NCBI RefSeq assembly: GCF_017742215.1
Contig: NZ_JAGHKP010000002.1
Coordinates: 1,026,737-1,090,736 of the forward strand
Direction: 5' to 3'
Length of the DNA: 64,000 nt
From: Chitinophaga chungangae
Lineage (GTDB): Bacteria; Bacteroidota; Bacteroidia; Chitinophagales; Chitinophagaceae
Below are positions 26,016 to 43,461 of the stretch, piece by piece. The notes beneath the pieces are model-generated. The model saw nothing but the letters and a program-made list of their open reading frames with translations, was not told where the DNA came from and ran no database searches. The position numbers were made by a program, and so were the translations under genes. Every line of letters starts with the position of its first letter. The first letter of the stretch is position 1.

Positions 26016-26043
26016 GTCGTGGGTTTTTGCAAAAAAGAATCCG

Positions 26044-26070
26044 GCAAGAGGCGTGTGTTACGCCTCTTGC
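26044..26070 (-). other. Intergenic hairpin between susD and GH31 gene
   Basis: An 11-base perfect stem, GCAAGAGGCGT at 26044-26054 with ACGCCTCTTGC at 26060-26070, encloses a five-base loop. On the transcribed minus strand it is followed within seven bases by a T-rich stretch. It could be a leaky terminator or a stability element that sets GH31 expression below SusCD. Confidence 0.7.
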
Positions 26071-26101
26071 GGGGATGGTGCCGCCTGTGGAAACAAGGCG
26101 G

Positions 26102-27652: not shown

Positions 27653-27680
27653 GATCGTTCGTTTTTGAGTGAATAATGGA

Positions 27681-30632
27681 TTAGAGAGACACGCTTACGC
27701 CAAGGATGATGTTGCGCGCCGTCGGGTAAGGCGAATATTCGATGCCGAATGAATTGACGCCGTTGATGCTTTTATCCGTATTCACTTCCGGATCGAACCC
27801 GCTGTAATTGGTGATCACAAAAAGGTTCTGGCCGGTGAGGGAAATATTCACGTTTTTGAAAACTTTGCCGATGTTGCCAAGACTGTAACTGACGGTTGCG
27901 TTTGTCAGTTTCATAAAATCTCCTTTTTCGAGATACCGGGAAGAAGTGGTGATCGGGTTGGCGAGGTTCTCGTTGTTGCCCATCAGGCTCCGGGCGATGT
28001 TGCGGGAAGAAAGGTTGTTCACCGGCAATACGGTATTGGCCGTGTTGTTGTAAATATCCTGCCCGAACGCGCCGTTGAAATTGATGGCCAGGTACCATTT
28101 TTTGTAAGACAGGTCGGTGCCGATGCCGAGCAATTGTTTCGGGTTCGGGTCGCCCATGTAGTACATGGTGTTGCCGTTGTCCGCATATTGTGCAAGACCG
28201 TCTTTATCGAGCCCTTCGTATTTGCGCACGTAGAACACGTTGAGCGGATGGCCGTTGGCGAAACGCTGAACGGTAGCGCCGGTTACGCCCTGGCCGCTGA
28301 TCGCGCCGGTAAGCACGTCCGGCCCGGTGTAGTTCTGCAGTTCGTTGCTGATGAAAGTGGCGTTTACGCCGAGGCCCCAGAGCAGATCTTTACCCCGTAC
28401 GATCTCCCCGCGCAGGGCCAGTTCCACGCCTTTGTTGGTGATATCCCCGGGCATGTTGATCCAAAGGTTGGAAGCGGGGCCGGGCACGATGGCGGTGTAG
28501 TTGAACAGGAGATCGGTGGTTTTTTTATGGAAATAATCCACGCTGCCGCTGATCCTGGAATCGAGGATGGCGAAATCGAGACCGGCGTTCAGCTGGTTGG
28601 ATTTTTCCCATTTCAGGTCGGGGTTGGCTACGTTTACCTGTCTTGCGCCACCCGAGCCGGCCAGTGCGTATTGTTCCTGTGCGGCTCCGGCAGGGAATTC
28701 CTGGTTGCCGGTAATGCCCCATCCGAGGCGCAGGGCCAGGTTCTGGAAGAAGCTGCTTCCTTTCATGAATTCTTCACTGCTGATATTCCATTTCGCCGCG
28801 AAAGAAGGGAAATAACCGTAGCGGTTGTTCTTCCCGAATTTATTGGAACCGTCTGCGCGCATGGTGGCGGTGAGCAGGTATTTGTCCTGCAGGTTGGCCG
28901 TTACCCTTCCGAAAATGGATTGCAGCTCAGATTGCGGGTTCACGTAAGAAGAAATAAAAGTATTGCTCTGCAAAGCGTTCTGCAAAATACTGGTGTACGG
29001 CAGGGCGTCGGTGGTGAAGCCGAGCGCGCCGAGGTCTACGCCTTTGTACACAAAGTCCTGGTACTCGTAACCCACCACCGCGTTGAGATTGAGGGCGGTG
29101 GAAAGTTGTTTGTTGTAGCTCAGGGTGTGGGTGAACAGTTTGGTGGTGAGCTCGGCATTGCCGTAGTATGCCTGGCCGAGGCCTTCCACGCCGGGCAGGG
29201 TGATGTACCCTTTCAGTTCGGTGCGGCGGATGCCGGTTTGGCGGTTGATGGAAAAGAGGAAACGGTATTCCAGGTCGTCGGTGACCTTGAAATACGGGCT
29301 GATGCTGCCGAGGATGTAGGAAATATTGGCGTTATCGTCCCAGGCTTCAGACATGGCGAGCGGGTTCACCGCGGCGTTGCCGCCCAGCTGGTTCAGCGAG
29401 CCGTCCGGTTTATGCAGTGGCACCGTGGGGTTCCACTGCAGCGCCTGGCCGATGAGGCTTCCGCGATAGTCTGCGTTGTTGCTGATGGGGGCGAGCTGTT
29501 CCACGGTTTGTGCGGCCATGAGGTTAAAATCGAGGCCGAGTTTTTTGCTTTCCAGGAATTTGAACTGGCCGGAGAGGTTGCCGGTATATTTTTTCAGGCC
29601 GGATTTACGCACGATGCCTTCCTGGTTCATGAGGCCGAAAGAAGCGCGGTAACGGCCGTTTTCGCCGCCGCCGCTGATGCCGACGTTGAAGTTTTGCGTA
29701 ATGCCGGTGCGGGTGATGGACTTCATGCCGTCTTCGTTGGCGCCGCCGTCGCCGCTGGTGAACTTATACGATTCGAGCACGCCGCGGAATTCATCCGCGC
29801 TCAATACTTTCAGTTTTTTCATGATGGTGGATGCGCCCACGGAATAGTTGAAATCCAGTTTGGCAGGGCCTTCCACACCCTTTTTGGTAGTGATGATGAT
29901 CACGCCGTTGGAGCCGCGGGAACCGTAAATGGCGGTGGCGGACGCGTCTTTTAAAACGTCCATCGACGCGATATCGAAAGCGTTCACGAAGTTGAGCGGG
30001 TTAGCGTCTGGCGTAATGCCGAGCCCGTTCGCATTGATGTTGGGGCGGGCAACGCGGCCGTCCAGCGGAACGCCGTCTATCACGTAAAGCGGCTGGTTGC
30101 CGGAGCGAACGGACGATACCCCGCGGATGCGCACGGTAGTGGCTGCGCCGGGAGCGCCGCTGGTGTTCACCACCATCAGGCCGGCCACTTTACCCTGTAT
30201 GAGCTGGTCCGGCGCATTGGCGATGCCCTTGTTAAAATCTTTGGCTTTCAGCGAAGCAACGGAGCCTGTAAGGTCTTTTTTACGGGCGGTGCCGTAGCCT
30301 ACCACCACCACGTCGGTAAGGGTGGTGTTCTCGGTTTGCAGGGTCACGTTCACTTCCGATTTCCCCGCGATGCTCACTTCCTGCTGGGTGTAGCCGATAA
30401 AACTAACGAGCAGCGTAGTGGCGGAAGCGGGCACATTGAGCTTAAACACGCCGTTTGCGTCGGTAACGGTGCCGGTGGAAGTGCCTTTCACCTGTACGCT
30501 GGCGCCGATGATGATCTCGCCTTTGTCGTCGGTGATCTTTCCGGTAACGGGTTTTGTCTGGGCCACAACTGCCGCCGCGAAGAAAATAAGCGGACAGAAA
30601 AGCAGCGCTTTTAGTAGACGGATTTTGGTCAT
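27681..30632 (-). CDS. SusC/RagA TonB-dependent transporter
   Basis: A 983-residue outer-membrane transporter that imports oligosaccharides with SusD. It has a signal peptide (FFAAAVVAQ), a carboxypeptidase-regulatory-like N-terminal domain (VTGKITDDKGEIIIGASVQV), a TonB-box-like TLTDVVVVGYG, a plug domain (QPLYVIDGVPLDG; ASATAIYGSRGSNGVIIITT) and a large barrel. There is no STN signalling domain, unlike the transporter at 61357, so regulation probably comes from the upstream SusR-like protein rather than a FecR. A well-formed promoter and a leader inverted repeat lie upstream. Confidence 0.97.
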   Translation of the reverse strand: MTKIRLLKALLFCPLIFFAAAVVAQTKPVTGKITDDKGEIIIGASVQVKGTSTGTVTDANGVFKLNVPASATTLLVSFIGYTQQEVSIAGKSEVNVTLQTENTTLTDVVVVGYGTARKKDLTGSVASLKAKDFNKGIANAPDQLIQGKVAGLMVVNTSGAPGAATTVRIRGVSSVRSGNQPLYVIDGVPLDGRVARPNINANGLGITPDANPLNFVNAFDIASMDVLKDASATAIYGSRGSNGVIIITTKKGVEGPAKLDFNYSVGASTIMKKLKVLSADEFRGVLESYKFTSGDGGANEDGMKSITRTGITQNFNVGISGGGENGRYRASFGLMNQEGIVRKSGLKKYTGNLSGQFKFLESKKLGLDFNLMAAQTVEQLAPISNNADYRGSLIGQALQWNPTVPLHKPDGSLNQLGGNAAVNPLAMSEAWDDNANISYILGSISPYFKVTDDLEYRFLFSINRQTGIRRTELKGYITLPGVEGLGQAYYGNAELTTKLFTHTLSYNKQLSTALNLNAVVGYEYQDFVYKGVDLGALGFTTDALPYTSILQNALQSNTFISSYVNPQSELQSIFGRVTANLQDKYLLTATMRADGSNKFGKNNRYGYFPSFAAKWNISSEEFMKGSSFFQNLALRLGWGITGNQEFPAGAAQEQYALAGSGGARQVNVANPDLKWEKSNQLNAGLDFAILDSRISGSVDYFHKKTTDLLFNYTAIVPGPASNLWINMPGDITNKGVELALRGEIVRGKDLLWGLGVNATFISNELQNYTGPDVLTGAISGQGVTGATVQRFANGHPLNVFYVRKYEGLDKDGLAQYADNGNTMYYMGDPNPKQLLGIGTDLSYKKWYLAINFNGAFGQDIYNNTANTVLPVNNLSSRNIARSLMGNNENLANPITTSSRYLEKGDFMKLTNATVSYSLGNIGKVFKNVNISLTGQNLFVITNYSGFDPEVNTDKSINGVNSFGIEYSPYPTARNIILGVSVSL

Positions 30633-30858: not shown

Positions 30859-32451
30859 TTATATCTTAATTTCCATGATCCGGTCTTCAAATTCCTCGTT
30901 TGGGAGGATGGATTTGTTGCGGATGCGGGTTTTGTAGGCGTAAATGGTGTTCACGGAATATTCGAGGATGCGGGCGATCTTTTCGTTTTCGGAGATGCCG
31001 ATACGGATCAGGGCGTAGATGCGGAGGTCGGTATTGAGGAGCTCGTTTTCTTTGAGGTGGATGCGGTCTTCTTCTTTAAAAAAGGAGTTGAACTCGGAGA
31101 CGAAATTGGGGAAGATGCGGAGGAAGATGCGGTCGAAGTTGTGGAAAAGCTCTTCGCGTTCCTGTTTGATATTAATATTATTGACGATGTAGCGGATCTC
31201 GGCGTATTTGTGGTCGGTAAGACGGCTGTCCACCTGGTTCTTCAGTTTTTCTATCTTTTCGATGAAGGACGTGGCGATATGGAAGCAGTAACCGATGTAT
31301 TCTTCCTTTATCTTATTGGATTCCAGCAGTTTGTCGTTGATTTCCTGTTGGCGCTGGTGGGCTTTGGTGATGATGTTCTGGGCGGTTTTGAGTTTGCGGA
31401 ACTGTTTGAAGATGATAAACGACAGAACGATAGACGCCAGCAGCAGGAAGATGGCGATGCCGAGGTAGACGAACAGCCGGTTTTTCTGGCTTTCGACGGT
31501 ATTGAACCTTTCGCCTTCGATAATGGGGAGAATGGCGCTGACCTGCACTTTGCGCTGGCGGGCGCCGTAGAAGGTGGCGTCTTCCACCGCCCGTTCGATA
31601 TATTTGGAGGCATTTTTCACGTCGCCCGTCTGGAACAGGATGGAGGCGAGGTTAAAAGCCGCGGTAGTTTCCTTGATGGAGCCCTTTGTATCGGCCATGG
31701 CTGATTCCGCGAGCAGCCCGATGGCTTTGTCGTATTCCTTCCGGGAGACGTAAATGGAGCCCAGGTTGGCCTTGATCATGGCTTGCTGGTGGAAGGTAAG
31801 GTTGAGGGCGAGGCATCGGTTGAGGTAATATTGGGCGGAATCCATCTGCCCCATTTTAAAGAATTTGTAGCCGAGACAGCTGAGGCGTTCGAAGTGATTG
31901 TCCGGGTACATGGCCGCCGCCGAATCCGTAAAACGCTGGGCTTCGCGGAGGTATTGGGGGGAATAGTGGCGGTCGTTCACATAATCGGCGAGGTCGTAAT
32001 AATACCGCCGTACGAGCACGAAATACTCCGCCTTCATGGAATCCCGCAGGTGGCGGACGCTGAGGGTATCCAGCACGGCGGCAGTTTCGCGGAACATGCC
32101 GGAGGAGAGCAGGATAAAGCCGAGTTTGATATTGGCGTAAGCGATCCGGCCTGGGTCGTTCATTTTTTCGGCGATGGCGCCGAGGGTGAGGGCGTAAGAG
32201 AAGGCGGAATCGTAGTTAAAGGCCTTATAGGCTTCGTAGAGTTTGAGGCAGGCGTTGTATTTTTGTTCCGGGAGGCGGGCGTTGTGGAAGTTGATTTTGA
32301 GGGCGTTCAGCTGGGCATATTTTTGCGCATCGAATTCGCGGGTTTTTTCGATCGTGAGGTTGAGCTGATGCAGCAGGCTGTCTTTACCGGGCAGGGCAAA
32401 AACCCTGGGGTTTATGAAGATCAGCAGCAGGGTGAACGGGATCCACTTCAT
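30859..32451 (-). CDS. SusR-like membrane transcriptional regulator (DUF6377 type)
   Basis: A 530-residue regulator with a signal sequence ([12 protein letters not shown]), a TPR-type helical periplasmic region (about 30-320), one membrane span (about 335-355, [21 protein letters not shown] in part), a coiled stretch, and a C-terminal DNA-binding domain with LuxR-like helix-turn-helix ([27 protein letters not shown] in part). This is the layout of SusR-type regulators, which sense a sugar in the periplasm and activate sus operons. It lies upstream of the susC promoter on the same strand, 226 bases away, so it is the likely activator of this locus. Confidence 0.88.
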
Positions 32452-32515
32452 ATTAATTCTGGCTGCTATAAAGATATCAGAAATAGGGGTGTTTAGAAAA
32501 AAAGTTGAAATAGAT

Positions 32516-32545
32516 TTTGCAGAAATAAAATTTTGTCTATTTTTG
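32516..32545 (+). promoter_or_regulatory. Promoter of tRNA-Asn
   Basis: TTTG at 32516-32519, an 18-base spacer and TATTTTTG at 32538-32545 match the Bacteroidota consensus. The tRNA starts 45 bases downstream. Confidence 0.75.
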
Positions 32546-32589
32546 CAATCCCAATTTGCGATTGAGATTCAATAACGAAGCGGGAAAAT

Positions 32590-32663
32590 TCCTCCTTAGC
32601 TCAGTTGGTTAGAGCATCTGACTGTTAATCAGAGGGTCGCTGGTTCAAGTCCAGCAGGGGGAG
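32590..32663 (+). tRNA. tRNA-Asn (anticodon GTT)
   Basis: A 74-base gene folding as a complete cloverleaf: acceptor TCCTCCT with AGGGGGA, D arm GCTC/GAGC, anticodon stem TCTGA/TCAGA around the loop CTGTTAA, and T arm GCTGG/CCAGC around TTCAAGT. The anticodon is GTT (Asn). The discriminator is G and the CCA end is not encoded. It marks the left edge of the AT-rich island. Confidence 0.97.
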
Positions 32664-32686
32664 CAGAAAGTTATCAAAACCGAATG

Positions 32687-32718
32687 AAGGATCGCGAGAG
32701 CGGTCCTTTTGTTTTTTT
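32687..32718 (+). terminator. Terminator after tRNA-Asn
   Basis: AAGGATCGC pairs with GCGGTCCTT around a GAGA tetraloop (32687-32708, one G-T pair), followed by TT, a G and seven T. Confidence 0.88.
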
Positions 32719-32746
32719 GGGAAATGTCAACAATGGAATAATGCCC

Positions 32747-32911
32747 TTAAATACTACTCCTTAACGTATCCGCTAATAATTGCCAGTAGAAATTTCGTTC
32801 TTTAGTATAAGAATGTTGTAGGCAAGGTTCTCCAATCCTTTCCAAATCAGCGAATGTTTCATTGCGGATTTTTTTATCTACAAAGCAATAAAAAATCTGA
32901 AATACAGTAAA
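32747..32911 (-). pseudogene. Possible decayed C-terminal gene fragment after tRNA
   Basis: The roughly 250 bases between the tRNA terminator and the helicase gene hold no intact gene. On the minus strand 54 codons stay open from just after a stop and end at TAA (32749-32747). The peptide looks protein-like (for example IRNETFADLERIGEPCLQHS) but has no start codon. It may be the tail of a gene lost when the island formed, or chance in AT-rich DNA. I do not recognise it. Confidence 0.2.
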
Positions 32912-32962
32912 TTAGCTCTAATTTTTTGCTAGTAGAATGACATTAAGAAATAGAGAAAAACG

Positions 32963-35857
32963 ATGCCCCTTACTTTATATCACGCCAAATACTTTTCATA
33001 TGATCTAACGAGGCAACTCCCGTCGTCGGACCTGGGGAAGTTTGCGGCATCTCTCCAGAATGCTCAGGTAGACCTGAATCCTCATCAGGTGGATGCTGCA
33101 CTATTTGCTTTTCAGTCACCTTTATCTCAGGGAGCTATATTAGCAGATGAAGTCGGGCTAGGTAAAACTATAGAAGCAGGAATTATATTATCCCAGCAAT
33201 GGGCTGAAAAGAAACGAAAACTGTTAATCATTACTCCTGCTAATTTAAGGAAGCAATGGAGCCAGGAGCTGGCAGATAAGTTTTATCTGCCATCCGTTAT
33301 CATTGAAACAAAATCTTTCAATGAAGAAATAAAAAACGGCAATCTCAATCCGTTTGTGCAGGCTGACAATATTGTCATTTGCTCCTATCAATTTGCGAAA
33401 TCAAAGTCCGAATATATTGAACAAACTAAATGGGACTTAATTATTGTAGACGAAGCGCATCGCCTGCGAAATGTGTACAAACCGTCCAGCAAAACAGCCA
33501 ATGCAATTAAGAACAGTATTCGCAGGTATAAAAAGGTATTGCTGACGGCTACACCGCTCCAGAACTCCATCCTGGAGCTATATGGATTGGTTAGTATTAT
33601 TGATGATTATGTCTTTGGTGACTTAAAGAGTTTTAAAGCACAATATTCCAGGTTAATTGACGAGGGAAACTATCAGGAATTAAGGAGCCGTATCCAACCA
33701 GTTTGCCACAGAACGTTAAGGCGGCAGGTACTGGAATATATTAACTATACCGAACGCATCGCTATATGCCAGGAATTTATACCTACGGATGAAGAATATC
33801 AATTATATCGATTTGTTTCGGATTATCTCCAAAGAGATAAACTGTATGCTTTGCCCAATAGCCAAAGACAGTTAATGACCTTAATCTTGAGGAAATTATT
33901 GGCTTCTTCTTCGTATGCTATTTACGGTACGTTAGATGCATTAGTAAAGAAACTGGAAGGCATTCTTGACAAGCAAGAGACGGATAATTTATTGCTTAAA
34001 TTAGATGCTGACTACGAAACAGCAGATGAGTTAGAGGATGAGTGGCAGGATGAAGACGTGTTAATTAATGACGAACCTTATTCCGACGATGATATTGAAC
34101 AGATAAGAGCAGAATTAATAGACTTAAGGCAATTTCGTTCGCTTGCCTATACTATTCAGAAGAATTCAAAAGCTGAGCAGTTGTTAGTTGCTTTAGAAAG
34201 GGGATTTTCTGAGCTGCAGCGATTGGGCGCCAATAAAAAGGCATTGATATTTACCGAAAGCAGGAGAACGCAGGATTTTTTGTATCGGATGCTTGAAGTA
34301 AATGGTTATAAAGATGAGCTGGTTCTGTTCAATGGCGTAAATAATGACCGCGAATCGGGAAAAATTTATAAGAAATGGTTGGCTGAAAATAAGAAGACCG
34401 ATAGGGTGACAGGTTCTCCGACTGCGGATAAACGAGCTTCTTTAGTCGAGTATTTCAAGAATAACGCGACTATAATGATTGCTACTGAGGCTGCTGCAGA
34501 GGGCATCAATCTACAGTTCTGTTCATTGATTGTCAACTTTGATCTTCCCTGGAATCCTCAGAGAATTGAGCAACGCATTGGTCGTTGTCACCGTTATGGA
34601 CAGAAACATGATGTAGTTGTTATTAACTTTTTAAATAGGAAAAACGCTGCTGATGTAAGAGTTTATCAGCTTTTAGATGAAAAATTTCAGTTATTTAATG
34701 GTGTTTTTGGTGCGAGCGATGAGGTTTTGGGTGTAATAGGGAATGGCGTAGATTTTGAAAAAAGAATTGCCGCTATTTATCAGGATTGCCGCACACCGGA
34801 AGAGATACAGAAAGCTTTTGATAAATTGCAGGATGAATTGAAACCTCAGATTTCGGAGCGTATCCATGAAGTAAGGACAACTTTAATGGAAAATTTTGAC
34901 GAAGAGGTAAGAGAGAAACTAAAGAGTAATTTGTTGGAAGCCAAAAGGCATCTGACAGGATTTGAAGATAAGCTTTGGAAAGTTACGCAGTTCTACCTGA
35001 GTGACTGCGCTGAGTTTTCCTCCGATTATACATTTAAGCTTACCAGTAACCCCTTTCCCGGGGAAAAAATCCATGAAGGGCCTTATATGATTCTAAAATC
35101 ATCGGACGAGCAGCGAAAATCCGATATTCCAGTGCCTGATGATACCAATATTTACCGGATAGGTCATAAATTGGCTCAAAGAATATTGTCTGAATGTAAG
35201 TCTTTAGAGAGCCCGGTTAAAGAAATTATATTTGACTATAAAAATACACCTACGAAGGTCGCATTGTTGGAGCAACTTGTTGGCCAATCTGGCTGGATGC
35301 AAGTACATTTTTTTTCAATTCAATCTTTTGAGCCGGAGGATTATTTGTTATTGGTATGTATGACTGATAGCGGTAGGTTTATTGATCATGAGACCGCGCA
35401 CCGGTTTTTTTCTTTGCATGCAGAGGAAAAAGGTATATGTGAGCTTACTGATAACTTGAAATTGACGCTGCAAGAGGAGGCTTATAAGATAAGACAGGGG
35501 ATTGTCAATGATAATGCCGCCAGGAGCCGGGATTTTTTTGACACAGAAATGGATAAGCTGGATCAGTGGGCGGACGATATGAAAATTAGCCTGGAGAAAG
35601 AAATCAGGGATTTGGACGCAGAGATAAAACTGAAAAAGGCGGAAGCAAAAAAGGCCCTAAATCTGGAGCTGAAAATCGGGTTACAGCGAGAGGTGAAAGA
35701 ATTAGAAAAGAAACGTAACGGGAAGCGCCAAACTCTTTTTGTAGCACAAGATGAAATAGACGCAAAAAAGGACAACCTGCTTTCGGAAATCGAAGCCAGG
35801 TTAAATCAAAAACTTGAACAAGAAGAGCTGTTTACTATTAGATGGGTTATTGTATAA
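32963..35857 (+). CDS. SNF2/HepA-type helicase-related ATPase of the defence island
   Basis: A 964-residue superfamily 2 ATPase with Walker A DEVGLGKT at 62-69, DEAH box at 163-166, TATPLQNS (motif III), and a second RecA domain ending in RIEQRIGRCHRYGQ (motif VI). The SNF2/RapA-like core is followed by a long charged C-terminal region predicted to form coiled coils (about 850-945). SNF2 proteins translocate on double-stranded DNA and may remodel bound proteins. It is the first gene of a three-gene set with a type III-like methyltransferase 91 bases downstream and a restriction subunit. Composition is markedly AT-rich, unlike the backbone, indicating horizontal transfer. A related helicase (DrmD) occurs in DISARM, but no other DISARM gene is present. 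Confidence 0.9.
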   Translation: MPLTLYHAKYFSYDLTRQLPSSDLGKFAASLQNAQVDLNPHQVDAALFAFQSPLSQGAILADEVGLGKTIEAGIILSQQWAEKKRKLLIITPANLRKQWSQELADKFYLPSVIIETKSFNEEIKNGNLNPFVQADNIVICSYQFAKSKSEYIEQTKWDLIIVDEAHRLRNVYKPSSKTANAIKNSIRRYKKVLLTATPLQNSILELYGLVSIIDDYVFGDLKSFKAQYSRLIDEGNYQELRSRIQPVCHRTLRRQVLEYINYTERIAICQEFIPTDEEYQLYRFVSDYLQRDKLYALPNSQRQLMTLILRKLLASSSYAIYGTLDALVKKLEGILDKQETDNLLLKLDADYETADELEDEWQDEDVLINDEPYSDDDIEQIRAELIDLRQFRSLAYTIQKNSKAEQLLVALERGFSELQRLGANKKALIFTESRRTQDFLYRMLEVNGYKDELVLFNGVNNDRESGKIYKKWLAENKKTDRVTGSPTADKRASLVEYFKNNATIMIATEAAAEGINLQFCSLIVNFDLPWNPQRIEQRIGRCHRYGQKHDVVVINFLNRKNAADVRVYQLLDEKFQLFNGVFGASDEVLGVIGNGVDFEKRIAAIYQDCRTPEEIQKAFDKLQDELKPQISERIHEVRTTLMENFDEEVREKLKSNLLEAKRHLTGFEDKLWKVTQFYLSDCAEFSSDYTFKLTSNPFPGEKIHEGPYMILKSSDEQRKSDIPVPDDTNIYRIGHKLAQRILSECKSLESPVKEIIFDYKNTPTKVALLEQLVGQSGWMQVHFFSIQSFEPEDYLLLVCMTDSGRFIDHETAHRFFSLHAEEKGICELTDNLKLTLQEEAYKIRQGIVNDNAARSRDFFDTEMDKLDQWADDMKISLEKEIRDLDAEIKLKKAEAKKALNLELKIGLQREVKELEKKRNGKRQTLFVAQDEIDAKKDNLLSEIEARLNQKLEQEELFTIRWVIV

Positions 35858-35948
35858 GCATACGTCAAGCGATGCTTGAGCGCATTTATTGGTAGGCTAT
35901 GACCCTGCTGGATGAAAAGAACTTATTATCTATAAGTGAAAAAAATTA

Positions 35949-37880
35949 ATGGCAAAGAAACGACTACAAAAATTAGAACTAACGTGGATTGGTAAGGGCG
36001 AGGAGCTAAAGCTCGAGCCCCGTATTCTAGTAGAGAGTCCGGAATATTCTTATGGAGATCCGGATACCGGAAATATGCTTATTCAAGGTGACAACTTATT
36101 GGCATTAAAAGCACTGGAACAGGAGTACGCCGGGAAGGTAAAGTGCATCTATATAGATCCTCCTTTCAATACTGGCGCCGCCTTTGAAAATTATGATGAT
36201 GGAATAGAGCATTCGATTTGGTTGGACTTAATGTATCGAAGATTACGTGTGTTATATTCTCTTCTTCACAACGAGGGCTCAATATTTGTTCATCTAGATG
36301 ACAATGAAGCAGATTATTGCAAGGTAATTTTAGATGCTATTTTTGGCAGAAATAACTTTATAAGCAGAATCACCGTGGATGCCCGCTCCCCTTCTGCCTT
36401 TAGTACGGTAAATCCTGGTGTTTTCAAATCGTCTGAGTATATGCTTTGGTATGCAAAAAACAAGTCTGCTTGGGAGAGTAGGAGTATGAGAATTGCATCT
36501 ACAAGAGATATGGCCTATAATAGGTTTATTGTAAATAGGGACGAAGACGAATCGAAATGGATTTTTATTCCTTTAAAGCAGGCTTTTCTGGAATGTGTAA
36601 ATAAGGATAAGCTTGGTGAGATAGAGAGCTTTCTGGCAAGTATTTATAGCAAATGCCAAGGTTTAACAAAAAAACAGATCGAGTTGTGGATTAAAGAAAA
36701 TATTACGTTTCATTTAGGGTTTAATTTGAAGCTCGTTTCAAACTATCTTCACAATAAGCTTGCTATGGAGAATTATTCAATCTTTAAACAAGCTGTTTAC
36801 ATGTATATTTTAGAGAAATGTTCTTATAACTATACCGAGGTGGATTTTGACGACTTTGTTTTTAAGAATTCTCACAGTGTGTTTAGAGAGACTGAAATAT
36901 CTGATGATGGGGCTGGGCAGGAGATAGTTCGTTTGAAATATACGTCGCTTGAAGCGCCATCAAAAATATTTAAGTTAATTAGAGGTAACGAACTTGCTCC
37001 TGTTTACATATCGAATGGAAAACAAATATCTTTTTATAGCAAGAATGTTGAGGAAATAGACGGAAAACTTTCTTCAACTAAATTATTAACAAATATTTGG
37101 ACTGATATTTCTTGGGAAGGAATAGCCAAAGAGGGAGGTGTGAAATTTAAAAAAGGAAAGAAGCCTGAAAGGTTATTGAAGCGTTGTTTAGAATTAGCGA
37201 CAAATGAAGGTGATTTGGTTCTTGATTCCTTTTTAGGTTCAGGAACTACCGCAGCGGTCGCTCATAAAATGCGTAGAAAATATATAGGTATTGAATTAGG
37301 CGAGCAAGCTGTGACCCATAGTTTCTCTAGATTAAAATCAGTTGTCGACAATGATCAAACCGGTATAAGCAAAGCCGTCAACTGGAAAGGCGGCGGCGGC
37401 TTCAAATTCTATACCTTAGCCCCAAGTTTATTGAAGCTAGATAAATTCGACAACTGGATTATCAGCGAAGAATATAATGCCGATATGCTGGCGGCTGCCA
37501 TGGCTAAGCAGGAGGGCTTTGTTTATCGACCAAGCGAAACACAGTACTGGAAACAAGGCCAGAGTAGCGAACAAGATTTTATTTTTACGACAACGCAATT
37601 TTTTACATTGGAGGCATTGGATCGTATCCATGAAACCATGCAGACTGGAGAAAGCCTTTTGATTTGTTGTAAGGCATTTCAACAAGAATGCATATCAAAA
37701 TATTCCAATATTACCATAAAGAAAATCCCCCAACTTTTACTAAACCGATGCGAATTTGGTAAGGACGATTACAGTTTGAACATTGTCAATCTGCCTACTG
37801 AGAAGAAAAACAGTATTTCAACCAATGACAAAAGTAGTAAACAAATAAAACCCAAAACCTTGTTTGAAGAAGATGAATAA
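35949..37880 (+). CDS. Type III-like adenine-specific DNA methyltransferase (Mod)
   Basis: A 643-residue N6-adenine methyltransferase. The catalytic motif IDPPFNTG (Asp70-Phe73) precedes the SAM-binding motif DSFLGSGTT (426-434). This order, with a target-recognition region of about 350 residues in between, is the beta class used by type III Mod subunits. The N-terminus carries MLIQGDNLLALKAL, typical of Mod. Modification of one strand of an asymmetric site would protect the host; the site itself cannot be read from the sequence. Its last eight bases overlap the start of the restriction subunit. AT-rich codon use matches its two neighbours. Confidence 0.93.
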   Translation: MAKKRLQKLELTWIGKGEELKLEPRILVESPEYSYGDPDTGNMLIQGDNLLALKALEQEYAGKVKCIYIDPPFNTGAAFENYDDGIEHSIWLDLMYRRLRVLYSLLHNEGSIFVHLDDNEADYCKVILDAIFGRNNFISRITVDARSPSAFSTVNPGVFKSSEYMLWYAKNKSAWESRSMRIASTRDMAYNRFIVNRDEDESKWIFIPLKQAFLECVNKDKLGEIESFLASIYSKCQGLTKKQIELWIKENITFHLGFNLKLVSNYLHNKLAMENYSIFKQAVYMYILEKCSYNYTEVDFDDFVFKNSHSVFRETEISDDGAGQEIVRLKYTSLEAPSKIFKLIRGNELAPVYISNGKQISFYSKNVEEIDGKLSSTKLLTNIWTDISWEGIAKEGGVKFKKGKKPERLLKRCLELATNEGDLVLDSFLGSGTTAAVAHKMRRKYIGIELGEQAVTHSFSRLKSVVDNDQTGISKAVNWKGGGGFKFYTLAPSLLKLDKFDNWIISEEYNADMLAAAMAKQEGFVYRPSETQYWKQGQSSEQDFIFTTTQFFTLEALDRIHETMQTGESLLICCKAFQQECISKYSNITIKKIPQLLLNRCEFGKDDYSLNIVNLPTEKKNSISTNDKSSKQIKPKTLFEEDE

Positions 37881-40572
37881 ACAAATATTAGATAATATTA
37901 AACAACGTTTATCCCTGCGTCAGCCTTTGCAAAACGCATTGGACATTATGGCTGATATTGCTGATAAATTGAAGCTGTCGAAAGCAGCCGTCAAAGAAGC
38001 TGAATATGAGCATTATCTTAAAGAGTGTCAGGAACGCATTCTTAAAAATTATCCAGCCTGCACAGATTTTCAAAGAGCGTTTCCATCCATTACATTTTCA
38101 ATTGCTACTGGCGTAGGGAAAACCCGGTTGATGGGTGCCTGTATTACCTACCTATACCTGGAAAGGGGAATCAGGAATTTCTTTGTTCTGGCGCCCAACC
38201 TTACTATTTATGATAAGTTGATTAAGGATTTTGGTGATCCGTCGCATGCTAAGTATGTGTTCAGTGGGATTGCTGAATTTGTACATAACCGTCCCGTTAT
38301 CATCACAGGTGATAATTATTCGCAACAAGGAAGCCTGTATGCGGAGAGCGAGATTCGCATCAATATTTTCAATATTTCTAAATTCAACTCCGACAATAGA
38401 GGGACCAGAAAAGAAGGCGTATCGCTTGCTCCCAAAATCAAAAGACTTTCTGAATACCTGGGTGAATCCTATTGGAATTACCTTTCCGGCCAGGATGATC
38501 TGGTAATCCTAATGGACGAGGCGCATCGTTACCATGCTGATGCATCCAAGAGTGCGATTAACGAACTGAGCCCCGTAATGGGAATTGAACTGACGGCAAC
38601 TCCCTTTGATGAAAAGAACATGCCTTTTAAGAATATTGTGTATGAATACAATCTGGCGCAGGCATTGGCGGATGGTCAGTATGTAAAAAATCCCGCTATT
38701 GCTAAGCGGAAGAACTTTCAGAAAGGCAATCTCACAGAGAAGGAGGTGGAACTAATCAAATTAGAAGATGCAGTTTCCATTCATCAGGATACCAAAACCG
38801 AACTGGAGCTCTACTCCAGGTCTAATAATGTAAAGTTGGTCAAGCCATTTATACTTGTTATCTGTAAGGATATCAATCATGCAAAGGAAACCTTTGACTT
38901 TATTAACTCGGAGGAATTTTATAAGGGAGAGTTTATTGGCAAGGTATTACAGATAGATAGCTCTACCAGAAAAGAAGAAGAAATTGATCGCCAGTTTGTT
39001 TCTTTGGAAGACCCTGATAACGAAATCGAAATTGTAATCCATGTTAATATGCTTAAAGAAGGGTGGGATGTTACCAATCTATACACGATTGTCCCGCTTC
39101 GGGCGGCAAATGCAGGTGTATTGATTGAGCAAACTATAGGCAGAGGGTTACGTTTGCCGTATGACGGCAAAAGAACTGGAGTAGATAAAGTTGATAAGCT
39201 AACCATTATTGCTCATGATAATTTTGATTCCGTTATTGCCGAAGCCCAAAATCCGAATTCGATACTCAATAAAGTATCTTTTGTAGAATTGGAGGATGCT
39301 GATCTGAATGTCAAAACTAAGGTAATCACGTCGCCTTCGGTAATAGATCAGCAACTGCAAACTGAGCAGGAAAAGATAGCGGCGATCGTTAACGTTAAAG
39401 AGAAGGAAAAGGCTCAGAATAATCTGGATGCGAAAAAGGCAATCGTCAATGTGTTGCCCTCTTTCAATAAATCCTCATTGGTAAAGAACGCCAGCGACTT
39501 AACAAAGCCTGAAGTAAAGGACGAAGTCATCCGTAGAATCACAGAAGATTTGAATAAGGGGCAAAGCAACTTATTTACACCTCAGATTGTAGAAGCAATT
39601 AAATTGGAATATGAAGACGTTGTAGCGGCATTTCAGCAACATATCATAGAGATTCCTCGCATGGACTTGGTTCAGGGAGAGATCAAAGCTTGGTTTGATG
39701 ATTTTGATCTGGATAGCTCCGGTTTTGATTTCAAGGCGTTGGATGAACAAATAATTCGAATGGGGTTGAAAGACAGAGTGGTGGAAACCTTGGGGGTATA
39801 TTCTAGTGGATCTTACGGAGATCCTCTTGATCTTATAGTAAGTGAATTGCTCAACTACCCGGAGATTGACTATGACGACAACGCCGACTTATTGTACAAA
39901 TTAGCCACACAAGCTAACGAAGCATTAGCCAGTACGCTGGATGGGGAAAGGGAGATAAGCAAGACGGTATTTCAATTTAAGAAAGCTATCGCAGCTCGGA
40001 TACACGACCAGATGCAAACACATTTTAGATTGACAAAACCTGATTATATAGCGCCTACCGTCTTGCCGTTCACCAGAATTGAACCGCATAGTTTTTCCGC
40101 TTTGGCAGATAACGGATATAGGGATTACAGAGATGTTGTAACACCAATATCATTCATACCTAAGCTGGTTTTTAATGGTTTTGAAAAGTCGTGTCATTTT
40201 GAATATAAGTTCGACTCGAAAACTGAACAAGATTTAGCGTTCGTTCTGGAGAATGATAAGGAAGTGCTGAAGTGGCTGCGTCCGGCGCCGAACCAGTTTC
40301 GGATTTATTGGAATAATAATTCTAGCCGCTATGAACCAGATTTCATAGTAGAAATTGCAGATACCATATTTATGGTAGAGCCAAAATCTAGCGCAAATAT
40401 TCAGGACGTTGATGTACTGGAGAAAAAAGAGGCGGCTGTTCAGTATTGCAAATTTGCGACCGAGCATAATGTGAAAAATGGTGGTAAGCAATGGAGATAT
40501 TTGTTGATTCCCCACAATGAAATTTCAAGAACTGTTTCTTTCAGTTATTTGACTGTCAAATTCGGTGAGTAG
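37873..40572 (+). CDS. Type III-like restriction subunit (Res) with C-terminal nuclease
   Basis: An 899-residue ATP-dependent restriction subunit. The helicase motor has Walker A ATGVGKT (78-84), DEAH at 215-218, ELTATPF (motif III) and IEQTIGRGLRLPY (motif VI). The C-terminal region carries a PD-ExK nuclease signature with Pro822-Asp823 and Glu836-x-Lys838 in EPDFIVEI and MVEPKSS. It would cleave unmodified DNA together with Mod. I start at the ATG at 37873, which overlaps the mod stop by eight bases; an upstream in-frame TTG at 37864 is less likely. Length is within the usual range for Res proteins. Confidence 0.93.
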   Translation: MNKQILDNIKQRLSLRQPLQNALDIMADIADKLKLSKAAVKEAEYEHYLKECQERILKNYPACTDFQRAFPSITFSIATGVGKTRLMGACITYLYLERGIRNFFVLAPNLTIYDKLIKDFGDPSHAKYVFSGIAEFVHNRPVIITGDNYSQQGSLYAESEIRINIFNISKFNSDNRGTRKEGVSLAPKIKRLSEYLGESYWNYLSGQDDLVILMDEAHRYHADASKSAINELSPVMGIELTATPFDEKNMPFKNIVYEYNLAQALADGQYVKNPAIAKRKNFQKGNLTEKEVELIKLEDAVSIHQDTKTELELYSRSNNVKLVKPFILVICKDINHAKETFDFINSEEFYKGEFIGKVLQIDSSTRKEEEIDRQFVSLEDPDNEIEIVIHVNMLKEGWDVTNLYTIVPLRAANAGVLIEQTIGRGLRLPYDGKRTGVDKVDKLTIIAHDNFDSVIAEAQNPNSILNKVSFVELEDADLNVKTKVITSPSVIDQQLQTEQEKIAAIVNVKEKEKAQNNLDAKKAIVNVLPSFNKSSLVKNASDLTKPEVKDEVIRRITEDLNKGQSNLFTPQIVEAIKLEYEDVVAAFQQHIIEIPRMDLVQGEIKAWFDDFDLDSSGFDFKALDEQIIRMGLKDRVVETLGVYSSGSYGDPLDLIVSELLNYPEIDYDDNADLLYKLATQANEALASTLDGEREISKTVFQFKKAIAARIHDQMQTHFRLTKPDYIAPTVLPFTRIEPHSFSALADNGYRDYRDVVTPISFIPKLVFNGFEKSCHFEYKFDSKTEQDLAFVLENDKEVLKWLRPAPNQFRIYWNNNSSRYEPDFIVEIADTIFMVEPKSSANIQDVDVLEKKEAAVQYCKFATEHNVKNGGKQWRYLLIPHNEISRTVSFSYLTVKFGE

Positions 40573-40737
40573 GAAAAAAATAGCACTAATTATTTTGGCA
40601 TATTTACGGTAGTGTTTAGATAACTGTGTAAAGGTTAGGATGGTAGGAATGGGAGTTCAGGGATATTGTATCTGTAACATTACATTCTCCACCCATTCAA
40701 ATTTCTATTGCCGAATTTGCAATCATCGATTAGTCTT

Positions 40738-41724
40738 TCACGTCTTTTCCAGTTGCCGCAGTCGACCTTGATACGATTGCCAGTAATTGCGTTTAGTGGT
40801 TTCATCCAGATAGGACGCCAACGTTAATTCCTGCACCTTATCTGTTTCGGAAAGCATAATTTGCCTGATTGCATCGAAGGAGGCCCGGGAAATGCCTGCC
40901 TGATCGGCCAATACGGAGAACTGCTGCATAATTTTCCCCTGCGCTAAATTTCCGGGTAACAGGCCATCATCTAAGGCGAAATCCTTGTCCTTAATATGAA
41001 TCCGGCTGTTAAGCAAGTCATACGCCGGACTCAGACGGTAATCACCCATTGGTGTTTCGAGAAGAGAAAAATTCTTGAAATGTGCATCACCATTTGAAAA
41101 GAGATAGTTGAACATGAGCAGCTTCAGTAATTTCGGCGCTTCCACGGGATAAGCCGGGACGTGTACTTGCATGAGCAGGAATAGCTGCAAATAGTTGCCG
41201 AGATATTTATAGTGTTCTCCGTGTGATTGGGGCGTACGCCCGGCTAGTGATGCAAAATCTTCCTGCGCGAGTTTTCTATCATTTTCATCGACATCAAAAC
41301 GTTTGGTGATGTACGCGGGTGCTCCATTCCGGAAGAAGATCAGCGCATTCTCCGCCGTTTCAATATGATATACTTGTCGCGCGATCTGCATGGTAAGGTG
41401 TTCATTTGCGGGCATCTGGTCCGGTCGCCGGCCGGCTGCCGGAATTGGTTTCAGGATGTAACTTCCTCGTTCGCCCTCGTTAATCAATCGAAGTTTGTTC
41501 TTCTCGAGCAGAACGGAGAATTTTTCTTGTACACCGGAGATAGATATGCGTTTTCTGTTCTCATCAAAGAGTTCATCCATTGCCGGATTAGTCGCGGGAG
41601 AATCATAGGGAAGAAGATGACTGACCTTGCGGCCCTTGAAGACCCTGACGAGTGCCGTTCGACTATAGGTATGGTAGCCAGCGGCCAGCGTACCGGGACA
41701 ATGTTGGATATCTGGTAAAGGCAT
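40738..41724 (-). CDS. HipT-like toxin kinase of a split HipA module
   Basis: A 328-residue HipA-fold Ser/Thr kinase lacking the N-terminal subdomain that full HipA carries. It has the glycine-rich-loop phosphorylation motif SISGVQEK with Ser61 and Ser63, the catalytic loop NGDAHFKN (Asp213, Asn218), and the metal-binding SPAYDLLNS (Asp236). The Ser-Ile-Ser pair resembles that reported for E. coli HipT of the HipBST system. HipA-type kinases phosphorylate aminoacyl-tRNA synthetases and halt growth; the target here is unknown. It follows hipS by two bases and hipB in the same operon, on the strand opposite the restriction genes. Confidence 0.88.
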   Translation of the reverse strand: MPLPDIQHCPGTLAAGYHTYSRTALVRVFKGRKVSHLLPYDSPATNPAMDELFDENRKRISISGVQEKFSVLLEKNKLRLINEGERGSYILKPIPAAGRRPDQMPANEHLTMQIARQVYHIETAENALIFFRNGAPAYITKRFDVDENDRKLAQEDFASLAGRTPQSHGEHYKYLGNYLQLFLLMQVHVPAYPVEAPKLLKLLMFNYLFSNGDAHFKNFSLLETPMGDYRLSPAYDLLNSRIHIKDKDFALDDGLLPGNLAQGKIMQQFSVLADQAGISRASFDAIRQIMLSETDKVQELTLASYLDETTKRNYWQSYQGRLRQLEKT

Positions 41725-41726
41725 GG

Positions 41727-42050
41727 TTAATCGATTTTAGACACGGTAACCGCGCCGATGGTATCTGTTTGGGCAATCGTCAGCAGTAACCCGAAATAGT
41801 CGGTCTTGTCCAAGTGGTTAAGTTGGCAAACGACCTGTTTGTTTGATCCTTCCGGCAGCATGTTGTAGAAGAACGGGAATAGGTGATTAGAATGGTATGG
41901 GGAGGCGGTCTTCGGCAATGTAAGGCTGATCGCCGGCTTGCTACTGTCTTCTACCCACGATGCGTTATACTGGAATGTGAACGTACCGTCATCATGTTGT
42001 GTTAAGACGCCGGCTTCTTGCCCTTTGAAAAGAATGTTAGCTGCTCTCAT
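41727..42050 (-). CDS. HipS-like small subunit (HipA N-terminal subdomain)
   Basis: A 107-residue protein that corresponds to the N-terminal subdomain missing from the neighbouring kinase. Motifs include SLTLPKTASPYHSNHLFPFF and FYNMLPEGSNK, which are found in full-length HipA before the kinase core. In the HipBST system of E. coli this small protein (HipS) is the antitoxin. The ATG at 42050 overlaps the stop of hipB by four bases, so the two are translationally coupled, and the kinase follows after two bases. That it neutralises the kinase here is inference from the family. Confidence 0.87.
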   Translation of the reverse strand: MRAANILFKGQEAGVLTQHDDGTFTFQYNASWVEDSSKPAISLTLPKTASPYHSNHLFPFFYNMLPEGSNKQVVCQLNHLDKTDYFGLLLTIAQTDTIGAVTVSKID

Positions 42051-42265
42051 GCGTTAATCCCCCTGTTTTTAATGATGACCGTTACCTCAAGGCCCAGTGC
42101 GTCACCGAGCTTTTGGAGCGTTTGCAAGGTAGGATTGCCCTTGCCGCTTTCAAATTGTTTCAAGGTTCTCAATGCTACGCCGGAAAGTTGAGCGAGCGTC
42201 TCCTGCGTCACATTTAGAGATTCCCTTCTGGCTTTCACGATGTTGAAAATTTCTTTGGAGTGCAT
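42047..42265 (-). CDS. HipB-like XRE-family DNA-binding protein
   Basis: A 72-residue helix-turn-helix protein of the Cro/C1 type (VTQETLAQLSGVALRTLKQF and NPTLQTLQKLGDALG), the usual HipB fold and size. It is the first gene of the split HipA operon and probably represses it by binding upstream repeats. Candidates are an inverted repeat at 42318-42339 and a direct repeat ATAGTA at 42267 and 42281, immediately before its start codon. Confidence 0.88.
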   Translation of the reverse strand: MHSKEIFNIVKARRESLNVTQETLAQLSGVALRTLKQFESGKGNPTLQTLQKLGDALGLEVTVIIKNRGINA

Positions 42266-42317
42266 TATAGTACCTATTTCATAGTAAAATTAAGCATTCT
42301 GGATTAAAATTCAATAT

Positions 42318-42339
42318 AAAGTGCAGTGAAAAGCACTTT
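42318..42339. promoter_or_regulatory. Inverted repeat upstream of hipB, possible operator
   Basis: AAAGTGC at 42318-42324 and GCACTTT at 42333-42339 form a perfect 7-base inverted repeat with an eight-base spacer, centred about 63 bases before the hipB ATG. It could be a HipB operator or an RNA hairpin. Confidence 0.4.
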
Positions 42340-42376
42340 TTAATTAAAATATGTATGAAGCACGGGCAAATACAAT

Positions 42377-42402
42377 AAAAAGGGCAGTATAGTGCCCTTT
42401 TT
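42377..42402. terminator. Bidirectional hairpin terminator
   Basis: AAAAAGGGCA at 42377-42386 pairs with TGCCCTTTTT at 42393-42402 around a six-base loop, giving a T-run on both strands. It sits between the hip module and the AbiEii fragment, insulating both directions. Confidence 0.85.
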
Positions 42403-42480
42403 GAATAATTCATCTTTCCATTCGTCCTTAAAGCCACCCAATGCTGCAAATATTCCCTTTCCATCGAAACAGGGGCATAA

Positions 42481-43083
42481 ATGCGTGAATTTTCTTGGAA
42501 AGCCATTCATTTCGGGTGTTTGGAAAAGAAAAAATCCATAAAATTCACCATAGAATCGGCATTCCTCAAATCCGAAACGTTTTGGAAAGAATTGGTGTTG
42601 GACGGCATTATTCTCCAGGCTGGCGTACAGGCGTCCCCGGGAATTAAGATCAAACTGGAAGTTGACCGACGGCCCCCACTCGGCTTCAAAACAGAAGAGA
42701 AATTGTTATTGAGACCGTTTTCGTTTTATGTAAAGTGTTTTACGCTGCCATGCCTTTTTGCAGAAAAAATGCATGTGCTGCTGTTCCGGAACTGGAAACA
42801 GCGGGTGAAGGGCCGCGATTGGTATGATCTTGAGTGGTATATTAAAAAAGGCATACCCCTCAACCTGCATCACTTTCTTCTCCGTGCGCAGGATACGGGC
42901 GATTGGCCTGCAGGCGAAATTACTGGAGAACAAGTCTTGCAATTATTAAAAGAAAAGATAGCCGCCGTTTCGTTTGACGCGATCCGGGAAGACATCGTCA
43001 GGTTTATTCCCGACGAAAACGTACTCGACATCTGGAGCCCGCAATATTTTAACGCCCTTGCCGACAAAATCAAATTCACCTGA
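42481..43083 (+). pseudogene. 5'-truncated AbiEii-type nucleotidyltransferase toxin
   Basis: The 200-residue frame matches the C-terminal part of AbiEii/AbiGii toxins, most clearly FTLPCLFAEKMHVLLFRNWK and QRVKGRDWYDLEWYIKK. The N-terminal nucleotidyltransferase motif of intact members (a GGTAL and a DLDF-type segment) is absent. In front of the frame are only 78 bases, then a terminator hairpin, so there is no room for the missing part. It is most likely a non-functional remnant; an AbiEi antitoxin gene is also missing. The start Met is simply the first one and may not be a real start. Confidence 0.75.
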
Positions 43084-43461
43084 ACAGCACACCCACACCC
43101 AACCAGGCGGACTATGGTCTCACCCACCTCGTTGCGGATCCCGGAAAGAAAAAACAAACAATCGACAGGAGATTGGCGGGATAAACAGTCCACGGCGAAA
43201 GATATTTCGAAACAACCGGCGCACAGTTGCTGTAATGCAAGATCCGGCAGTTCGATCTGCACCTGCTGATGCTCACCTTCGCCCAGTCCTATGGTATAAC
43301 GCCGCCCGGGCGCATACACGGCATAATAAGTAAAAGGCTCCAATGTTCTTTTCTGGCCGCGGGCATTTTCACTTTCCCCTCAATACCTTTCTTCGTTGCA
43401 CCTAGATCCATAGCTAAGGGGTAAATGCTCTCCCGGTAAGTTAATTAGTTTGCTACGCAAA
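43084..43461. other. 378-base stretch without a confident gene
   Basis: This stretch joins the island to the backbone. A minus-strand frame starting at ATG 43343 stays open through it and into the antisense of the AbiEii fragment (to 42870). Its first 86 residues (beginning MEPFTYYAVYAPGRRYTIGL) do not overlap another gene and could be a fragment of a real protein, but I recognise no family. I see no clear hairpin, attachment repeat or promoter. Confidence 0.3.

Follow-up and report, generated by a model that had tools for sequence, protein, structure and literature searches.

A SNF2-type motor gene heads a type III restriction-modification operon of Chitinophaga chungangae and accompanies several Mod-Res lineages

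Introduction

Type III restriction-modification (RM) enzymes are textbook two-gene systems. Many type III systems carry a third gene, encoding a motor protein, and the role of this protein has been open since 2021. Such a gene is found in a locus of Chitinophaga chungangae (assembly GCF_017742215.1, contig NZ_JAGHKP010000002.1, positions 1,026,737 to 1,090,736), in which a gene for a SNF2-type ATPase stands in front of the type III genes mod and res; the whole 64,000 nucleotide stretch that was analysed is referred to as the window. What kind of motor is this, how constant is its association with Mod and Res, and what might it do there? The comparison presented here gives the motor a family, as it was closest to the DISARM protein DrmD and had a possibly RapA-like tail. 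It adds that this motor occurs together with several Mod-Res lineages that are unrelated to one another, and that the gaps flanking mod appear to be exchange sites for other genes, many of which are defence genes. Two questions are thereby made testable, namely whether the motor clears protein roadblocks for sliding Mod-Res complexes and whether the embedded genes depend on the motor.

The SNF2, mod and res genes

The first gene of the unit (32963..35857) encoded a SNF2/DrmD-like ATPase of 964 amino acids (aa), identified from the list of open reading frames (ORFs), PADLOC, Pfam, NCBIfam and alignment. It lay immediately 5′ of mod (35949..37880), which encoded a beta-class type III DNA methyltransferase of 643 aa according to PADLOC, Pfam and its sequence relatives in the PDB. 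This was followed by res (37873..40572), encoding a type III SF2 ATPase-nuclease of 899 aa when read from the ATG at 37873 (ORF list, PADLOC, Pfam and alignment). All three genes were on the plus strand, as are the motifs, modules and gaps of the unit given below and the tRNA-Asn gene at its left. With the Res start at this ATG the overlap of mod and res was exactly 8 bases; the alternative start chosen by the ORF tool, a TTG at 37864, is nine bases further out. The GC content was 0.37–0.41 across 33–41 kb compared to approximately 0.54 in the flanking DNA. The three genes, their coordinates, their common strand, the AT-rich stretch and the 8-base overlap were thus all as given in a preliminary description of the locus made from the sequence letters.

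Analysis of the SNF2 protein with Pfam revealed SNF2-rel_dom (1e-35) and Helicase_C domains. An alignment of 40 sequences showed the Walker A stretch (residues 62–69; 33146..33169), D163, E164 and H166 of the DEAH box (residues 163–166; 33449..33460) and, in motif VI, Q533, R534 and E536–R541 to be invariant. No nuclease family in the domain library matched this protein. The only models that it shared with Res were general SF2 helicase models (ResIII, SWI2_SNF2), SNF2-rel_dom being found in the SNF2 protein. No second SNF2 of the same family was found in the genome, where the next match scored 61 bits compared to 2154.

The Mod protein matched N6_N4_Mtase (6e-42, Pfam) and MTase_III (5e-162, PADLOC), and carried the catalytic motif IV, DPPF, at residue 70 (36156..36167) and motif I, FLGSGT, at residue 428. 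Its nearest solved relatives by sequence were the Mods 6k0w and 4zcf (EcoP15I). The central region, approximately residues 200–404 (36546..37160), diverged between close relatives and is likely to be the target-recognition domain. The preliminary description had called Mod a beta-class adenine methyltransferase; the class agreed with our analysis, while adenine as the target was an assumption, as the enzymes covered in Murray et al. 2021 (PMC8259958) show that beta-class type III Mods include m4C enzymes. An assignment to m4C or m6A from the motifs was dropped, since m4C type III Mods also carry DPPY/F.

Res matched ResIII (4e-22, Pfam) and REase_III (8e-166, PADLOC); at a threshold of 0.001 no PDB entry matched its sequence. 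Its Walker A motif was at 38107..38124 and its PD-(D/E)xK nuclease motif, P822 D823 ... E836-x-K838, at 40336..40386. G80–T84 of Walker A, D215, E216, H218, P822, D823, E836 and K838 were invariant across 23 aligned Res sequences. Pfam, PADLOC and the invariant motifs therefore bore out the identification of a SNF2-type ATPase, a Mod and a Res with a PD-ExK motif. Judged from sequence, the window encodes a motor with intact motifs, a type III Mod and a Res with an intact nuclease motif, in an order that is conserved.

Conservation of the triplet

A contig scan with the SNF2 protein of the window yielded 32 loci; being selected for resemblance to the window, they do not represent a random sample. 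In 29 of them SNF2 was followed by a Mod in the same orientation (in L018 as an N-terminal piece only), and in 26 by a Res. Three of the six loci without Res reached contig ends (L014, L027 and L039); the remaining three (L018, L026 and L037) were real exceptions. At 9989–18060 of L037 the SNF2 gene was followed by a RhuM-like gene, Doc, a short stretch around the start of Mod and then a gene for a 1094-aa PLD-SNF2 protein; the motor of this locus seems to have stayed in place when its Mod-Res part was exchanged for other genes.

A sample of 395 Bacteroidota genomes, drawn evenly across the phylum and including that of the window, was preferred over the similarity scan. SNF2 was present in 29 of these genomes (E ≤ 1e-100) and a window-type Res in 16 (E ≤ 1e-60). 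Wider stretches were examined for 17 of the 29 SNF2 genomes which, together with the window, gave 18 neighbourhoods; in the remaining 11 genomes the match was at a contig end in one and on contigs shorter than 14 kb in the others. Mod was found downstream of SNF2 in 17/18 neighbourhoods and Res in 16/18, both incomplete ones (L099 and L108) stopping at contig ends. In L102–L104, Res was identified from a short match (64 bits) within an ORF of 986–994 aa, and that of L100, which was weak by sequence match (62 bits), was confirmed by a type III Res family model (2.9e-101). Viewed from the Res side, 10 of the 16 genomes could be judged, with an intact SNF2 gene upstream in seven and a remnant in one (L113). 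In this remnant (1160–1575 of L113) only the two ends of SNF2 were left, as would be expected if its interior had been deleted; the cargo, Mod and Res were still long ORFs.

All 46 loci that had the three genes, L113 being counted with its remnant, showed the order SNF2–Mod–Res. The counting script took same-strand matches only, and no core-gene match on the opposite strand was present in the full match lists. SNF2, Mod and Res are thus supported as one conserved unit by these comparisons. The preliminary description had likewise proposed a single unit and had asked for a synteny check across genomes.

Beyond the phylum sample, SNF2 was found in 46 of 72,556 plasmid records (E ≤ 1e-100). A DNA methyltransferase was downstream on the same strand in each of the 11 plasmid records that were opened, although in L189 only a short piece of it was annotated, next to an insertion sequence that follows. 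In nine of these records the methyltransferase gene was itself followed by Res or by a gene annotated as a DEAD/DEAH-box helicase. With one E. coli SNF2 gene as a DNA query, 246 of 5,426 E. coli genomes gave a match, only two of them over at least 80% of the gene length, so the matches were mostly to distant relatives. Only one of 50,697 phage records matched SNF2 (E ≤ 1e-60), a short unannotated one, and six exact peptide patterns for Mod, a weak test, had no match in viral contigs.

Small genes encoding helix-turn-helix (HTH) proteins preceded or overlapped the SNF2 start on Pseudomonadota and Planctomycetota plasmids (L183, 8808–9035; L184, 8792–8992; L185, 8783–8992; also in L042 and L044), and a WYL gene was directly before or overlapping the SNF2 start in the plasmid locus L189 (8081–8992). 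These are probably operon regulators. No small HTH-type ORF was listed before SNF2 in the window.

Relation to Eco86II, BspHIV and classical type III systems

The arrangement has a precedent. It was reported by Murray et al. 2021 (PMC8259958) for the m4C type III systems Eco86II and BspHIV, in which a conserved helicase-like ATPase gene lies 5′ of mod; homologues of this ATPase adjoin Mod and Res in more than 500 genomes. The paper itself does not use the term SNF2. We located Eco86II in the E. coli NCTC86 record, and BLAST showed the two ATPases to be of the same family, with 44% identity over 978 columns (804 bits) along the whole length. The Eco86II Mod, by contrast, is 1040 aa long and was approximately 31% identical to that of the window in the methylase core, while its Res shared 34% identity with the Res of the window over just 55 residues, Mod and Res being of other subtypes. 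As the ATPase matched and its Mod and Res differed, the window is a member of the Eco86II/BspHIV kind, in which the motor is the constant element: it is a three-gene type III RM system of a published kind, and the arrangement is not new. Among the papers listed by searches of an open-licence library, neither the triplet nor the swapped cargo described below was named in any title or beginning of an abstract other than that of Murray et al.

When the Mod and Res of the triplet loci were labelled by their best BLAST seed, the same motor was found with classes A, B and C. By this comparison one motor family accompanies at least three Mod-Res lineages. The classical enzymes EcoP1I and EcoP15I have Mod and Res with the same catalytic motifs as the window; they differ in having no third gene, whereas SNF2 is linked to mod and res in the window and its relatives. 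In L179 and L180, where Res was above the cut-off of PRK15483, a model of classical type III Res proteins, mod and res were adjacent, with no SNF2 profile match and no intervening ORF.

Family and fold of the motor

Comparison with NCBIfam revealed DrmD_b to be the best family for the SNF2 protein, with 687 bits against a cut-off of 950; the match spanned positions 22–657 of the 868 in the profile, which is the motor core only. Four type III-linked relatives scored 665–737 bits, so that all five members tested were below the cut-off and matched in the motor core only. DISARM DrmD is thus the closest family of the motor core, with the differences that its cut-off was not reached, that the tail was unmatched by the profile and that no DISARM partners were found. 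None of the six island proteins scanned matched DrmA, DrmB or DrmC, except for a generic helicase match of SNF2 to a DrmA model, and a search of the genome for the MZB (DrmB-type) domain was negative, in agreement with the earlier statement that DrmA, DrmB and DrmC are absent. The preliminary description had given DISARM as the only other system known to pair such a motor with a methylase, which does not hold, since the descriptions of BREX type 3 and BREX-related systems (PMC12839542) and of ARMADA (PMC12458937) contain such pairings as well.

The C-terminal module of the SNF2 protein (residues 645–964; 34895..35857) had no Pfam match. AlphaFold2 models (pLDDT 72 for the whole protein and 86.5 for the tail alone) predicted an alpha+beta part, a long helical hairpin and a terminal strand; the preliminary description had spoken of a coiled-coil tail. 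Structural re-alignment against the PDB placed ZorD and eukaryotic SNF2 motors on the model core (Z up to 17.6). The RapA entries 8spg and 8so8 aligned to model residues 1–964 and 3–964 respectively (662 and 692 residues, Z 16.5 and 15.7, rmsd approximately 12); most of the other rows listed stopped near residue 650. With the tail model, four RapA entries aligned along nearly the full length (240–246 residues, Z 9.2–10.0, rmsd 6.1–8.1), other matches being mostly confined to the helical hairpin. The likeness to RapA along the tail was picked out only by structural re-alignment; a profile search of the PDB with the tail gave nothing significant. When the model of the full-length SNF2 protein was compared with viral structure models, the matches were SNF2 helicases of a generic type. 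We regard the models as indicating a fold resemblance of modest strength between the tail and the C-terminal region of RapA, not RapA orthology.

A Swi2/Snf2 core with a RapA-like C-terminal region is a combination that the SNF2 protein of the window would share with RapA, with BrxHII of BREX type 3 and with BREX-related helicases, the latter two being also paired with a methyltransferase in the systems described in PMC12839542. The window differs in that the cut-off of the RapA equivalog in NCBIfam was not reached (175 bits compared to 576) and in that its Mod and Res are of type III. A scan confined to the six island proteins gave no match to PglZ, BrxC or DUF499.

Variable genes in the gaps around mod

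The gap between SNF2 and mod (35858..35948; slot 1) was 91 bases long, with no terminator-like site listed, and is empty in the window; in relatives it often contained variable cargo. Cargo was surveyed in 57 loci, comprising the window, the 32 scan loci, five named records and 19 from the sample (L094 was omitted as it is on the same contig as L024, and seven later plasmid loci are not counted). It was defined as mechanically called ORFs of at least 75 aa in operon direction, some short ones of which may not be genes. Cargo was present in 40 of the 46 full triplet loci: in the SNF2–Mod gap in 32, in the Mod–Res gap in 19 and in both in 11. Ninety ORFs in the gaps were co-directional with the operon and three ran against it. 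The six loci without cargo were the window, L015, L020, L044, L064 (Eco86II) and L106. The window copy itself therefore carries no cargo, and neither three-frame translation of its SNF2–mod gap nor comparison with the sister locus L009 gave a recognisable cargo remnant.

Single-linkage clustering of 99 ORFs over the 57 loci gave 39 clusters, eight of which occurred in both slots. A Pfam match was obtained for 22 of 30 cargo representatives. The families were SLFN_AlbA_2, DUF3800, BRO-N, GmrSD, AAA_15/AAA_21, HTH plus Peptidase_M78, RhuM, Fic, Abi_2, YhcG, DUF6119, AAA_13, AIPR and DUF4276, together with one transposase. PADLOC families matched 18 of 20 representatives (9/10 at 1e-5 and 9/10 at 1e-10), among them AbiD, AbiU, SoFic, PD-T4-5, PD-Lambda-2_B and HEC-01, with many others being PDC candidates. 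The match of cargo to PADLOC is partly circular, because the PDC candidates were themselves found by an embedding screen, as described in PMC12988326. Defence genes embedded in other defence operons are known from the preprint of Payne et al. 2024, as cited in PMC12255303 and PMC12988326, and DarTG2 inside a type I RM system is an example given in PMC12255303. The relatives of the window likewise have additional defence genes inserted between RM genes, and differ in that the host operon is SNF2–Mod–Res with two slots and a variable Mod centre; the slots of the window are empty. We do not claim priority for the observation of cargo in SNF2–Mod–Res operons.

When slot-1 content (20 states, 16 rows empty) was mapped on a tree of 48 SNF2 rows, for the 46 rows that had a Mod, 27 changes were needed, while shuffled labels needed 29.1 on average and 27 of 500 shuffles were as low as the observed value. 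Slot-1 content is thus nearly independent of SNF2 descent; the Mod class needed only five changes on the same tree. Alignment of L012 with L022 showed 89% similarity through SNF2, ending 4 bases past the stop codon and resuming 4 bases before the Mod start; it was lost again in the middle of Mod, and was back at 92% in the end of Mod and the part of Res before the L022 contig end. The pairs L012/L029 and L097/L109 were alike, with joins within approximately 20 bases of the gene ends. Between L018 and L019 similarity stopped 10 bases before the end of SNF2 and resumed approximately 70 bases inside the Mod ORF. Cargo looks to have been exchanged by recombination in the flanking conserved genes and, as far as the alignments tell, the inter-gene gaps are exchange sites for unrelated genes, many of known or candidate defence families.

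As a control, a different type III Res lineage was analysed in 20 neighbourhoods, several of which came from the same genera, and Mod was found in 16. An ORF of at least 90 aa was present between mod and res in 10 of these 16, the exceptions being L165, L175, L176, L178, L179 and L180. This argues against a special role of the motor in holding cargo and weakens the idea that cargo is a property of a SNF2 chassis.

A different SNF2-type ORF was upstream in seven of the 20 control neighbourhoods. In L167 (2192–12066) and L175 (1865–10677) a different SNF2-type helicase of approximately 950–1100 aa was followed by DUF4391, Mod and a PRK15483-like Res, and by profile and eye the same parallel arrangement was seen in L168, L170 and L176. 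DUF4391 was confirmed by Pfam in L167 and L175; some of these loci had an extra gene, which was YhcG in L167. A second kind of SNF2 motor therefore heads some type III operons.

Possible roles of the motor

We lean slightly towards reading the window as a type III RM system of the Eco86II/BspHIV kind in which SNF2 is a RapA/DrmD-like motor that acts in trans beside Mod-Res by displacing proteins. From known type III biochemistry, Mod would methylate host DNA at an asymmetric site, on one strand only, and a Mod-Res complex would use ATP to leave unmodified sites, slide along the DNA and cut when two complexes meet. SNF2 would, with moderate to low confidence, be a double-stranded DNA motor outside the core Mod-Res enzyme. 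Acting in trans in the infected cell, it might displace RNA polymerase and phage DNA-binding proteins that hide sites or block sliding. A motor of this kind would explain the strict linkage, the dispensability in vitro and the several unrelated Mod-Res partners. The RapA-like fold resemblance favours a protein-displacing double-stranded DNA motor; combined with the strict linkage and a motor common to several Mod-Res lineages, it argues for a helper that clears DNA-bound proteins.

Several points weigh against this reading. That the motor helps restriction, as the preliminary description had proposed, is a hypothesis. According to the Eco86II experiments reported in PMC8259958, the ATPase was not needed for methylation and its peptides were undetected in a partially purified, partially cutting preparation. 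Among the 10 window-type Res loci that could be judged, two had no SNF2 (L111 and L112) and L113 had only its remnant, while L037, one of the 32 scan loci, keeps the motor without an intact Mod-Res. The published negatives and the losses in relatives argue against the motor as an obligatory subunit. The structural evidence has its own weaknesses: plain Foldseek with the SNF2 tail gave no match at E ≤ 0.001, the tail Z of approximately 10 is close to values that may arise by chance with helical models, and the RapA similarity, at 175 bits for a cut-off of 576, is at the level of fold only.

A tentative extension of the helper reading, which we think less likely than not, is that of an exchangeable immune chassis. 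The motor gene and the conserved ends of mod and res would serve as recombination handles by which bacteria swap whole defence modules in the two slots and the DNA-recognition centre of Mod, and the motor would be the one constant partner of several Mod-Res lineages since it would make phage DNA covered by proteins accessible to each of these lineages.

It is unlikely, in our judgement, that SNF2 instead limits harm, as a restriction-alleviation factor that strips Mod-Res from host DNA or from replication or transcription conflicts. The dispensability for methylation and the absence from the cutting preparation, both in the Eco86II work (PMC8259958), would fit such a role, as would the RapA-like fold and the small HTH or WYL genes directly upstream in several plasmid loci, which suggest tight control. 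Mod-Res loci without SNF2 persist, however, so that SNF2 is not essential against self-damage, and classical type III systems manage without it. Similarly improbable is the reading that SNF2 works on its own, as a one-gene defence or in the recycling of RNA polymerase, and is simply carried along with type III operons. This would account for the pairing with several Mod-Res types, for L037 and for the different SNF2-type helicase that holds the same position in other type III loci, but the motor was never alone in the 18 phylum-sample neighbourhoods where enough sequence was available, and it preceded Mod in each of the 46 triplet loci, always with the same gene order.

Still less probable is that SNF2 serves the cargo, as a sensor or loading motor for invading or stalled DNA that activates the gene in the slot, the window being a cargo-less remnant. 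The co-directional cargo in 40/46 loci and the defence or candidate families matched by 18/20 representatives are in its favour. Six of the 46 loci, Eco86II included, had no cargo and yet SNF2 was one long ORF; in the control type III loci, which do not have this motor, mod–res cargo was also present in 10 of the 16 with a Mod. The cargo families are unrelated in mechanism, and the PADLOC match has the circularity noted above. A DISARM variant, with DrmD joined to a type III Mod-Res, was rejected as very improbable, for DrmD_b was the best family at 687 bits (665–737 in the four relatives) but all five proteins were below 950 over the motor core only, with no MZB domain found in the genome and no DrmA, DrmB or DrmC among the six island proteins scanned beyond the generic DrmA match.

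Surroundings of the locus

A tRNA-Asn gene (32590..32664) formed the left edge of the variable region, directly upstream of the AT-rich stretch. Similarity to the congener G397 ended at 32667 and returned at 43459; in G397 the tRNA-Asn was followed by an unrelated stretch of approximately 15 kb before the shared sequence. In another congener (G406, locus L127) the hipA end of the window recurred at 92% identity, with other genes between it and the tRNA; by eye, these included a type I RM-like gene set at the tRNA-Asn. The tRNA-Asn locus is a variable insertion site in the genus, and the system of the window was probably acquired horizontally downstream of it. A mobile element with tRNA-derived attachment repeats was considered and rejected, as none of the direct repeats listed for 32400–43600 included the end of the tRNA. 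With a Bacteroidetes-type promoter consensus, no match with up to one mismatch was found in the 298 bases between the tRNA and SNF2; a perfect match was present before the tRNA at 32516–32545, the number of such matches in the window being near chance.

Behind the RM genes, a HipA-type toxin was split in two ORFs on the minus strand (40738–42280), with HipA_C at 40738–41724, the HipA N-terminal domain at 41727–42050 and, by eye, an HTH partner beside them. An AbiEii-family ORF (42481–43083) began inside its PADLOC profile (positions 93–269 of 270) and is probably an N-terminally truncated remnant of a type IV toxin. Upstream of the island, a SusC/SusD-like pair and a glycoside hydrolase on the minus strand (23562–30632) were recognised by eye as an ordinary Bacteroidota polysaccharide locus.

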